A stretch of 64,000 nucleotides of DNA from Thermincola ferriacetica (GTDB lineage Bacteria; Bacillota; Thermincolia; Thermincolales; Thermincolaceae): the NCBI RefSeq assembly GCF_001263415.1, contig NZ_LGTE01000003.1:1-64000 (forward strand), written 5' to 3'. Below, piece after piece: positions 2,766 through 11,100 of this stretch (position 1 is its first letter; every line of letters starts with the position of its first letter). Position numbers and translations under genes: made by a program. The notes below the pieces were generated by a model. The model was not told where the DNA came from and did no database searches. It saw only the letters and a program-made list of their open reading frames with translations.

Positions 2766-3542
2766 TTATTTTGCAAAAACATGGTTACCGATTTTTTTGG
2801 TGATTATACGTGACCAAACCCATTTACTTGTTGCGGTAGAAGGATTCCAGTAATAAAGAGCCCCACCCGTTGGATCCCAACCACTCAAAGCATCCTGAAC
2901 CGCTTTATAGGCCGTCTGGTCCGGACGCAAATTGATCTGCCCGTCAGCCACACAACTGAAAGCCAGTGGTTCATAAATAACTCCGGCTATTGAATTGGGG
3001 AAGTTTGGGCTTTTTACCCTGTTCAGAATAACTGCAGCTATAGCCACCTGCCCCTCGTAAGGTTCGCCCCTTGCTTCAGCATAAACAACTCTGGCCAGCA
3101 GGTCCAGGTCAGAACGTGATGCACTCCTGGATACGGTAACGGTAGGACGGCTGAACCGCTGAGGAATTGTTAAAACTTGTCCCACATATAAGGTATCCTT
3201 CCAGTAATTGCTGGCAGACTTAATCGCCTCAACGGTGGTACCAAATCTTTTGGCAATCAGATACAGGGTATCACCTTTCTGCACCACATAGCGGTTACCG
3301 GAACTAACTGACGAACTAACAGGTATGTTTAACCTCTGGCCAGGGTAAACGGTATTACTGGTTAAACCGTTACTGGCTTTAAGAGCTGCAGCCGATACGC
3401 CGAAGCGTTGCCCTATCAAGTAAAGGGTATCACCCTTCTTTACCGTATATGACACGGCTGCCTCAGCTTTGAATACAAAAAAGCCTCCCAATGTAACCGC
3501 CAACAACAATACTGCTAAAGTCAACGCAACAGACCGTTTCAT
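2766..3542 (-). CDS. LysM-containing SleB-type spore cortex-lytic/cell wall hydrolase
   Basis: The 258-residue protein starts with a signal peptide or membrane anchor (MKRSVALTLAVLLLAVTLGG). Two LysM peptidoglycan-binding domains follow, at about residues 31-75 and 83-128, each with YxVxKGDTLYLI. The C-terminal hydrolase domain (about 148-258) begins LLARVVYAEARGEPYEGQ, the signature of SleB/CwlJ-type lytic enzymes with its catalytic Glu in the AEARGE motif. It acts on peptidoglycan outside the membrane, probably on cortex or wall remodelling. The ATG follows AAAGGAGG. Expression is probably set by c-di-AMP through the riboswitch at 3562-3690, as for many wall hydrolases. Confidence 0.9.
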   Translation of the reverse strand: MKRSVALTLAVLLLAVTLGGFFVFKAEAAVSYTVKKGDTLYLIGQRFGVSAAALKASNGLTSNTVYPGQRLNIPVSSSVSSGNRYVVQKGDTLYLIAKRFGTTVEAIKSASNYWKDTLYVGQVLTIPQRFSRPTVTVSRSASRSDLDLLARVVYAEARGEPYEGQVAIAAVILNRVKSPNFPNSIAGVIYEPLAFSCVADGQINLRPDQTAYKAVQDALSGWDPTGGALYYWNPSTATSKWVWSRIITKKIGNHVFAK

Positions 3543-3561
3543 AAAATTTCCTCCTTTCTTA

Positions 3562-3690
3562 ACGCCTCCGGAGTTAGCTGACGGGTTCGGGTGGAAAGGA
3601 CAACCCTACACATAAGTGAACCTTATGCGATTCACCCCTGGCTGGAATAGCCTTAACTGGTTCCTCCGTACCTAAAATGGATTCGGCTTG
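3562..3690 (-). promoter_or_regulatory. c-di-AMP riboswitch (ydaO-yuaA type)
   Basis: Read on the minus strand, the leader carries the ordered conserved blocks of this class: GGAGGAACCA, GGGGTGAATC, a variable hairpin, TAGGGTTGTCCTTTCC, and CCGAACCCGTCAGCTAAC closed by a CTCCGGAGGCG end. The ribosome site AAAGGAGG follows within about 15 nt and no terminator lies between. Translational control is therefore likely, though the expression platform is inference. A TATAAT-like box lies just upstream, near 3703-3708. Riboswitches of this class typically turn wall-hydrolase genes off when c-di-AMP is high. Confidence 0.93.
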
Positions 3691-3955
3691 ACAGGGACAA
3701 GTTAATTATACCCTCTTTTGGCAGGGAACAGGATACCTTAAATATTCCCATAATAGCCAACAAATACCTTACAGCCAAAAAATAAAGAATTAGCTATTTA
3801 AACTGAGGAAAAGGGTTTCGTCTGAATTTTTGTTCTTCTTTTCATTTTGAAACTTTCTCCGACTAACCACCGTCAGTAAACAGTATAATATCTTTAAAGG
3901 CCGGAAACATGCTATAATAAGACTAAAATGATAGTTTTGAAGGAGGAAGTGTATT

Positions 3956-8159: not shown

Positions 8160-8687
8160 TTAACCAAAAAATTTTTTATACAAATCAGATAAATAATAAA
8201 ACCTGTCCCGATCCCTCTTGTCCAAAGCATCGTCAATTTCAGCCTGTAATTTCAACCTTTTTTCTTCCTTCAGAAATGCTATTCTGTTTAGTTCGCTCTC
8301 TAATTTTTTTAGCCTCTCGGAAAAATCAACCTCCGGCTCTTCGGCCAACTGTTCAATACAGGGACAACATATTAATTCCCGGTCAAAGGCAAGTCTGATA
8401 TATAGTTCTTCCGGCGGGTTGTTAATTAAAACCTCTGTTACTTCAGCCACATTTTCGTAATAAATGCCGTTTATTCGGCATAGGAAAGACACCGTAGGTG
8501 CACCTTCTGCCGAAATAATCAGGGCATTTGGTAAATACCTCACATCATCCACAAAATGACTTATCCGCAGCAACTGTTCTTCATGGAAAAGCAGTTGCAG
8601 AATTTGGTATGTATCAGGTCTTTTGAGCTGATTTTTTTCCATAAACCAGGCCAAAAACTTCTTTTTTCTAGCCATAATTTCGTCCAT
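8160..8687 (-). CDS. YpiB/UPF0302 family protein
   Basis: The 175-residue protein has the N-terminal UPF0302 domain (about residues 8-110). It contains KKKFLAWFMEKNQLKRP and HFVDDVRYLPNALIIS, which parallel B. subtilis YpiB. The C-terminal segment is charged and helical and ends EIDDALDKRDRDRFYYLSDLY, an IDEAL-type motif. The cellular role is not well defined. I placed the start at ATG 8687, four nt after GGGTGG; the longer frame upstream lacks a ribosome site. It is a single-gene unit with a terminator. Confidence 0.75.
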   Translation of the reverse strand: MDEIMARKKKFLAWFMEKNQLKRPDTYQILQLLFHEEQLLRISHFVDDVRYLPNALIISAEGAPTVSFLCRINGIYYENVAEVTEVLINNPPEELYIRLAFDRELICCPCIEQLAEEPEVDFSERLKKLESELNRIAFLKEEKRLKLQAEIDDALDKRDRDRFYYLSDLYKKFFG

Positions 8688-8798
8688 ATTACCACCCGAT
8701 TGGTTTAAGTTTGTTAAAACAATAAATATCAACCTTTATTAGACAAGGACGTAAAAAATCCTTTTAAATTATGGGTGGTAATTAATGGTGTAACATAA

Positions 8799-8889
8799 AG
8801 TCCACCGGGAGCCACTACCGCCAGCGCAGATTCACCGCCATATAAAAATGCGGTAAACCGCCGGTTCTTCCGTAGTGCGCCGGTGGACT
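8799..8889. other. Nested stem structure downstream of the CooS-like gene
   Basis: Three nested helices are visible: AGTCCACCGG/CCGGTGGACT (8799-8808, 8880-8889), CACTAC/GTAGTG (8813-8818, 8872-8877) and ACCGC/GCGGT (8834-8838, 8850-8854). There is no T-tract. The element could be a structured RNA, an mRNA-end protector or a palindromic repeat unit. The remaining 8688-8985 stretch shows nothing else. Confidence 0.55.
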
Positions 8890-8985
8890 ACCTGGCTGTT
8901 AGACTTCAAGTCTGCTTCCAGTTAACTTTTAAGCCCGTTTTAGATTAACTACCAGACATTACCGGTCTTAATTTTTGTCAATCAT

Positions 8986-10899
8986 TTAATCTAATCCCAA
9001 TTTAGCCCGCTTTTTAAGAATATGGTTTTCAATACCTTTTGCTGCTTCTACCGGATCATCTCCCAATGCAACCTTACCGCCCGTATATCCTTCCAACTGC
9101 TCAGTTAGAAGCTTGACTAATTCGGGGCCTCCTGCTACGGGAGGAGTAGGTGACAAATGGGTATAAAGCCCGTAAGCTAAAGCGAACATCCCGTCAATGG
9201 TAGCTTTTTGTTCCAAATACTGGGGGGCGGTTACTGCGATAGGCAAATCTGCTGAATCAACCCCAAGGTGATTTGCCAAGGCCGTCGTCAACATGGAAAT
9301 CCTCCCGGTATCTGTACAGGTACCGAAACTCAGAACCGGCGGAATATTCAGGCTCCGGCATATTTCCTGTAATCCCGGGCCCGCCATATTAATGGCGTCA
9401 AGGTTACACAGCCCGGCTACTTCCAGGCCATGATTACCACACCCGCCACTGACAATCATGATGTCTTTTTTAATTAATTCCTTGGCCAAATTTACGGTCA
9501 TATAATCATGGGGACCAGTAGACAATGTGGTACAGTTGACCAAGGCCACAACACCTTTAATTTTTCCCGCTTTAATGGCGCTGACCAGCGGATCGGGAGT
9601 ACCTCCGAGGGCCTTTAAAACTGCTTCCGTCGAAAAACCGGAAATAGCCTTGGTTATTTTTTGCGGCACTTTGGGAGTTACTTTACCTTTACGTGCCTTA
9701 AAATTGCCAATGGCCAGATCTATCAATTGATTGGCAATATGTGCAGCTTCCGGCGGCTTGTAATCGAAGTTTTTATCTACTCCGGGAATCCTCACCAGGT
9801 CATTGACACTGACTAATGTAACACCGTACTTTTCCTCATAAGGTTTCAGGTAAGGTGGTGAACAGTTTTCATCCATGGCAAAAACATCAATGGCGCCCGT
9901 TGCCAAGGCAGGCTCGATAGCTAACCAGTTGCCGGTTAAGCCCCGAAAAACCTCATCCATTGGTAGACGCTGTAGCATTTCCTGCCCTGTTTCAATGGAA
10001 CCGATAACCCGCAGCCCTCTCGCGCCGGCTTCCCTCGCCCGCTGCTGGACCTGCGGGTTTTTGGCAGCCAGGTAGGTAGCCATGCCGACCCATGGCTCAT
10101 GACCGTTAAAGACAATGTTCACGTATGCAGGGTCTAAGATCCCCAAATCAACTTCCACTTCATGGGGCATCGGTGTGCCAAAGAGAATATCCTGAACCAT
10201 TTCCAGCCCGATCTGTGCTCCGTAAATGGTAGCAATCCCCAAACGTAATGCTTTTCTGGCCATAGACAAGAAATCTCCATCCACATTGGTTAAGCAACTG
10301 GCTACAGCATCTTTAATTTCATGTAAGGTACCCGCAGGGTAAATGGCCAAATCCTGCCATTTTTTCTGCCTGGGTGGGGGCGCGAAGGCAGCAATAATTT
10401 TACTGGGCTCATCATAACCACGGTGTAGTTCATACATCAGGAAGTCTGCCAACCACGAAGCTACCTGTTCGGGACTACCGTTAGTACTTACCCCACATTG
10501 TCCGGCAAACCAGAAAAGCTTGTCACGGTCAGTAATTTTAAACGGTGTCTTGCCTTCAACGGTGGACTTTAAAGTTCTGAAAGCTTCATAGGCATGGTGG
10601 GCATAGGTTGACGCGCCCATGGCATTTCGGAGCAGCATATCCCGCATGGCCATCGCGTCGGGGGTAATGCCACATACCCCAAGCATAGCCCCTGCTTGGT
10701 CGGAAATACGGCAGGGACCGTTAGTACATAGTTGGCAACTGACCCCCGCTGAACAAAAACCACACCTGATCTTCTCCTGAGGGTCAAACCGGTCAAAGGT
10801 ATTGCTCATGCCGTCTTTATGCAGGCGCTCGTACATTTCCTGAACCGAGTCATGAACACTTACCCGATCACCTGTACGATGCCTAACCATTCGGGCCAT
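8986..10899 (-). CDS. cooS: CooS-family protein with altered C-cluster (divergent CO dehydrogenase)
   Basis: The 637-residue protein is full length for the catalytic subunit of Ni-Fe CO dehydrogenase. The N-terminal B/D-cluster cysteines are present (CGFCSAGVSCQLCTNGPC, about 46-63). For the C-cluster I see His267 (NGHEP), Cys346, Cys456 (VNCTT), Cys487 (SGGCG), Cys528 (GTCTDTGR) and Lys565. The usual GxCCTGxE motif reads GSIETGQE: Glu303 sits where the cluster cysteine belongs. The substrate may therefore not be CO. No cooF, cooC or acetyl-CoA synthase gene is adjacent. ATG 10899 is 7-8 nt after AAGGAGG; an ATG 6 nt further upstream is too close to that site. Confidence 0.88.
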   Translation of the reverse strand: MARMVRHRTGDRVSVHDSVQEMYERLHKDGMSNTFDRFDPQEKIRCGFCSAGVSCQLCTNGPCRISDQAGAMLGVCGITPDAMAMRDMLLRNAMGASTYAHHAYEAFRTLKSTVEGKTPFKITDRDKLFWFAGQCGVSTNGSPEQVASWLADFLMYELHRGYDEPSKIIAAFAPPPRQKKWQDLAIYPAGTLHEIKDAVASCLTNVDGDFLSMARKALRLGIATIYGAQIGLEMVQDILFGTPMPHEVEVDLGILDPAYVNIVFNGHEPWVGMATYLAAKNPQVQQRAREAGARGLRVIGSIETGQEMLQRLPMDEVFRGLTGNWLAIEPALATGAIDVFAMDENCSPPYLKPYEEKYGVTLVSVNDLVRIPGVDKNFDYKPPEAAHIANQLIDLAIGNFKARKGKVTPKVPQKITKAISGFSTEAVLKALGGTPDPLVSAIKAGKIKGVVALVNCTTLSTGPHDYMTVNLAKELIKKDIMIVSGGCGNHGLEVAGLCNLDAINMAGPGLQEICRSLNIPPVLSFGTCTDTGRISMLTTALANHLGVDSADLPIAVTAPQYLEQKATIDGMFALAYGLYTHLSPTPPVAGGPELVKLLTEQLEGYTGGKVALGDDPVEAAKGIENHILKKRAKLGLD

Positions 10900-10977
10900 A
10901 ATCATTCCTCCTTAACAGATTTTCTAAAAGAACAAACGTTTCTATTGAAACCTTTAAGGAAACTTTTGTTGATATCC

Positions 10978-11027
10978 GGAAATCATGTTTTGAGGTTATC
11001 CAAATTTTACCTCAAAGCATAATTTCC
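10978..11027. other. Long imperfect hairpin upstream of the CooS-like gene
   Basis: GGAAAT, ATG and TTGAGGT on one arm pair with ACCTCAA, CAT and ATTTCC on the other, separated by small symmetric internal loops. The loop is about 12 nt. No T-run follows. It lies about 80 bp before the start codon and could be an operator or a leader structure. The rest of 10900-11100 shows no gene. Confidence 0.5.
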
Positions 11028-11100
11028 TAGATATTCAGAAAGTAGTGTACCTCCACAACAGCACTTTATACCATTAAAGAAAACTATTTTGGCAAAAATA

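Follow-up and report, generated by a model that had tools for sequence, protein, structure and literature searches.

The window (the whole stretch of Thermincola ferriacetica DNA analysed here, 64,000 nucleotides long) carries on its minus strand a frame of 637 amino acids, read from an ATG at 10899 to a stop at 8986. A second in-frame ATG lies upstream at 10905; because the ribosome-binding site AAGGAGG is spaced 7 nt from the ATG at 10899 and only 1 nt from the other, the former is preferred. This is the start chosen in the original prediction, which did not name the strand. The protein scores 480 bits with PF03063 (Prismane family) and 809 bits with TIGR01702 (cut-off 478), the model through which such genes are annotated as CO dehydrogenase (CODH). 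The features of the locus are collected in Table 1.

Table 1. Features of the cooS locus and codons of the cluster residues (window coordinates).
Feature	Position	Strand	Evidence
cooS-V-like gene (structural group D-1), 637 aa	8986..10899	-	ORF; PF03063, TIGR01702; best PDB match 7b7q
Ribosome-binding site AAGGAGG	10907..10913	-	read directly in the sequence
UPF0302 (ReoY-like) gene, immediate downstream neighbour of cooS	8160..8732	-	adjacency in 7/7 genomes
C46-X2-C49 (type III D-cluster) and C55/C58/C63/C76 (B-cluster)	10672..10764	-	aligned to CooS-V C38, C41, C47, C50, C55, C68
His267 codon (CooS-V His259)	10099..10101	-	alignment
Glu303 codon (CooS-V Glu295, CODH-II Cys295)	9991..9993	-	alignment
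Asn345-Cys346 codons (CooS-V Asn337-Cys338)	9862..9867	-	alignment
Cys456 codon (CooS-V Cys449)	9532..9534	-	alignment
Cys487 codon (CooS-V Cys480)	9439..9441	-	alignment
Cys528 codon (CooS-V Cys521, persulfide carrier)	9316..9318	-	alignment; role from PMC9311411
Glu563-Gln-Lys565 codons (CooS-V Glu556, bridging Glu, HCP Glu494; Lys558)	9205..9213	-	alignment

The gene is solitary. Its neighbours are spoIIR, an SDH-type Clp-fold protease, ymxH, the UPF0302 gene, nrdR and nrdD, and no linked cooC, cooF or acs is present at the locus. The original prediction had read this absence as fitting a protein that does not oxidise CO. The observation stands for the locus, but not for the genome, in which three CCTG-type CooS proteins (contigs C5, C9 and C1) and an acetyl-CoA synthase (ACS), adjoining the C1 copy, are encoded elsewhere together with a class III hybrid-cluster protein (HCP); the missing neighbours therefore show only that the window gene lies outside those clusters. 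Wherever a genome of the order has both genes (seven of seven), the D-1 cooS is directly upstream of the UPF0302 gene. The pair lies between ymxH and nrdR in the window and, in the relatives, between two genes that we take from their sequences to be prs and ctc, so that the two have remained adjacent despite relocation. This adjacency is suggestive of a link between the two genes, although simple inheritance could explain it. A second UPF0302 copy is found in the host on contig C14. Apart from UPF0302 and the synteny at the level of the order, no conserved operon partner was seen across the compared D-1 loci, and the HypA/HypB/COG1063 association reported for D-1 (PMC6344411) was not found among their recurrent neighbours.

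No Rfam family was found near the window cooS. A leader RNA upstream of the gene was considered and rejected, as the strong hairpin there, an 81-nt palindrome at 10965-11045 (z -6.9), belongs to a dispersed, REP/MITE-like repeat family of about 20 genomic copies, the majority 86-96% identical. A single-copy strong hairpin (8790-8930, minus strand; -57.5 kcal/mol, z -4.6), with no match in Rfam, lies between cooS and UPF0302. Elsewhere in the window, a c-di-AMP riboswitch (RF00379, 90.9 bits) at 3549-3698 on the minus strand precedes a LysM/SleB-like cell-wall hydrolase gene at 2766-3542.

The motif GSIETGQE places Glu303 in the column of the C-cluster cysteine, as the original prediction had proposed. 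In the alignment this column is cysteine in all three CCTG-type CooS proteins of the host and glutamate in CooS-V of Carboxydothermus hydrogenoformans. The placement that the original prediction gave for His267, Cys346, Cys456, Cys487, Cys528 and Lys565 likewise agrees with H259, C338, C449, C480, C521 and K558 of CooS-V. To these can be added four D-1-diagnostic features that the prediction had not listed: Glu563, Asn345, Tyr99, which occupies the position of the acid-base histidine, and the CX2C type III D-cluster motif (C46/C49). Residue by residue, the protein agrees with the definition of group D-1 (PMC6344411). The original prediction had also named a cysteine able to reach the same site as an observation that would speak against it. 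The only cysteine without a counterpart in CooS-V is Cys135, which belongs to the N-terminal helical domain and lies apart from the cluster motifs, and hence no cysteine substitutes for Glu303. Glutamate fills this column in 41 of 42 rows of D-1-type relatives, the exception (L020) being frame-shifted there. Judging from this conservation across the in-frame relatives, and from their grouping in one clade, Glu303 is neither a chance substitution nor a sequence error.

A sequence search of the PDB gave CooS-V (7b7q) as the best match, with 972 bits (E 7.7e-292), while the next chain scored 420 bits. The two proteins, from different hosts, are 66.6% identical (416 of 625 residues), and every cluster residue checked is the same. 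In a tree of 59 sequences the Glu-bearing proteins, CooS-V and the window protein included, form one clade (support 99/97), separate both from the other CooS proteins and from the HCPs, and the change from cysteine to glutamate is a single one in 100% of the bootstrap trees. An AlphaFold2 model of the window protein (pLDDT 83, pTM 0.87) has the two CooS-V entries as its top fold matches in the PDB (TM 0.96, rmsd 1.6-1.7 Å). Three further CooS-like proteins, L122 (G036:C4:42109-43983), L126 (G043:C1:136138-137994) and L127 (G041:C41:17113-18930), have cysteine at the position of Glu303 and already carry Asn345 and Glu563; the HCP-like Asn345 and Glu563 can thus exist without the Cys-to-Glu change. 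Taken from sequence comparison and modelling, the window gene very probably encodes a CooS-V type hybrid-cluster protein (Ni-CODH clade D, structural group D-1), orthologous to CooS-V.

Compared with the Ni,Fe-CODHs of clades E and F (CODH-II, CODH-IV and the D. vulgaris CODH), the window protein has a similar fold (TM about 0.92), the B-cluster, five of the six C-cluster ligands and Lys565, but is only 31-36% identical to them. The sixth ligand is changed from cysteine to glutamate, which leaves the five cysteines and one histidine of a functional Ni,Fe-CODH incomplete; further changes are Gln to Asn before Cys346, His/Ser to Glu563 and the acid-base His to Tyr. With HCPs (classes I and III) it shares the Prismane family and the hybrid-cluster ligand set (His, Glu, Glu, Cys), including the two glutamates, as follows from its ligand identity with CooS-V and the published comparison of HCPs (PMC6344411). 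It differs from them in its CODH-type N-terminal cluster motifs and length and in belonging to a separate clade, and it does not pass the curated HCP models (TIGR01703, 48.1 bits with a cut-off of 360.8; NF003658, 50 bits with a cut-off of 367).

The reading of such proteins as holders of a hybrid cluster has good support and is already in the literature on the family. Group D-1 was defined, and its HCP-like active site pointed out, by Inoue et al. in 2019 (PMC6344411). Jeoung et al. (2022, PMC9311411) established by structure, spectroscopy and assays that CooS-V contains a Ni-free Fe/S/O hybrid cluster and catalyses neither CO oxidation nor CO2 reduction, and termed the change of Cys295 to Glu a synapomorphy of the CooS-V subclade. 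The cluster changes its structure with its redox state, being [4Fe-3S] when reduced and [4Fe-2S-S*-2O-2H2O] when oxidised, and upon oxidation a persulfide on Cys521 shuts the substrate channel (PMC9311411). Since the window protein has the ligand set and predicted fold of the Ni-free, CO-inactive CooS-V at 66.6% identity, a hybrid Fe/S/O cluster and a loss of CO oxidation are expected for it too, in line with the hybrid-type cluster suggested in the original prediction. The protein would be a homodimer built on the scaffold of a CODH. A [2Fe-2S] D-cluster would lie between the two subunits, each of which would contain one [4Fe-4S] B-cluster; the site of the Ni,Fe C-cluster would be taken by a redox-morphing hybrid cluster with His267, Glu303, Cys346, Cys456, Cys487, Cys528 and Glu563 as its ligands. 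By transfer from CooS-V, it would contain no Ni and would not oxidise CO; its cluster would be [4Fe-3S] when reduced and an oxo form when oxidised, and Cys528 would carry the persulfide that gates the substrate channel. The protein may then work as a low-potential reductase, in which electrons would pass from the D- to the B- and on to the hybrid cluster, and a small substrate would be reduced at open iron sites. At this level of identity to CooS-V, the redox potentials and substrate range of the window protein may differ from those of its orthologue.

One relative has lost most of this site. In HGW-Firmicutes-14 the D-1 protein (L026:7001-8911; also G035:C21:59432-61342) is 68% identical to the window protein and carries the substitutions C346S, C456G, C487S, C528S, N345G and E563D, while His267, Glu303, Lys565 and all B- and D-cluster cysteines are retained. 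It departs at 27 of 169 otherwise invariant columns, compared with 0 to 10 in the other relatives. Its frame is intact, and its divergence from the window gene is 0.18 at second and 0.55 at third codon positions. No intact D-1 copy was found in that genome. The form was seen in a single genome, and a search of nine family members gave no second close homologue of this kind. The protein may represent a scaffold that outlived its catalytic cluster, or decay that has only begun. The loss of four cysteines and the bridging Glu with an intact frame may be a newer result.

Three other readings of the window protein were weighed. A functional Ni-CODH with Glu303 in the role of the cysteine is scarcely credible: the high TIGR01702 score and the retention of the remaining C-cluster ligands would be expected of such an enzyme, but CooS-V, with the same ligands, has neither Ni nor CO activity, and in CODH-II the exchange C295E leaves an enzyme deficient in Ni and inactive towards CO (PMC9311411). 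A physiological hydroxylamine or NO reductase acting against nitrosative stress, as proposed for HCPs, is improbable. The active-site residues are those of HCPs, and CooS-V does turn over hydroxylamine, which reoxidises its cluster in crystals. The turnover is very slow, however (kcat 0.13 per s), with a kcat/KM of 20 per M per s, below the 450 of R. rubrum CODH; NO reduction was assayed and was undetectable, and the potentials of the hybrid cluster lie about 300 mV below those of E. coli HCP (PMC9311411). In addition, the upstream regions have no FNR-, HcpR-, NsrR- or CooA-like site in common, and the host already possesses its class III HCP. Of the two substrates offered as examples in the original prediction, hydroxylamine is thus borne out for CooS-V, slowly, and NO is not; neither is established for the window protein. 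By analogy, hydroxylamine would at best be a slow surrogate substrate.

A redox sensor or regulator, with the morphing cluster as a switch instead of a catalyst, seems unlikely, although several observations fit it. A sensor-type role has been proposed for clade D (eLife 2026), the gene is solitary and its chromosomal place varies, the HGW-Firmicutes-14 homologue keeps its B- and D-cluster cysteines without the catalytic-cluster ligands, and the ReoY-like UPF0302 gene adjoins the D-1 cooS in the order of the host. The strong conservation of the cluster ligands and the lysine in the other relatives fits catalysis at least equally well, however, and the window protein has no DNA-binding or signalling domain. 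A reductase is perhaps the probable function, in preference to a sensor.

The distribution of D-1 bears on the question of CO. According to the 2022 paper, the CooS-V group is present only together with other CODHs (PMC9311411). Starting from the D-1 relatives, the Prismane-family proteins of 30 genomes were listed in full, and the CooS members were confirmed in the low-count genomes. D-1 is the only CooS found in 13 of the 30 (G001, G007, G010, G016-G019, G021, G024-G026, G029, G030), which is an upper estimate as the genomes, mostly MAGs, carry no completeness figure; weight is carried by the two isolates among them, Anaeromonas gelatinilytica (G019) and [Clostridium] viride (G021). ACS was seen in none of these 13, and HCP is present in 10. 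This count contradicts the published statement and may be a newer result. Inoue et al. (PMC6344411) point to genetic data from Methanosarcina acetivorans by which a D-1 protein might take part in CO oxidation. Because many D-1 genomes show no other CODH and no ACS, CO metabolism is an unlikely role for the window protein.

More speculatively, the D-1 CooS proteins, that of the window included, may act independently of CO as low-potential reductases or redox switches, also in fermentative Firmicutes that have neither another CODH nor ACS, and at least in the lineage of HGW-Firmicutes-14 selection may have maintained the scaffold once the catalytic cluster was gone. A gene labelled as CODH through TIGR01702 should not be counted as evidence of CO metabolism, and if neither another CODH nor ACS exists in many D-1 hosts, what D-1 does is independent of CO.
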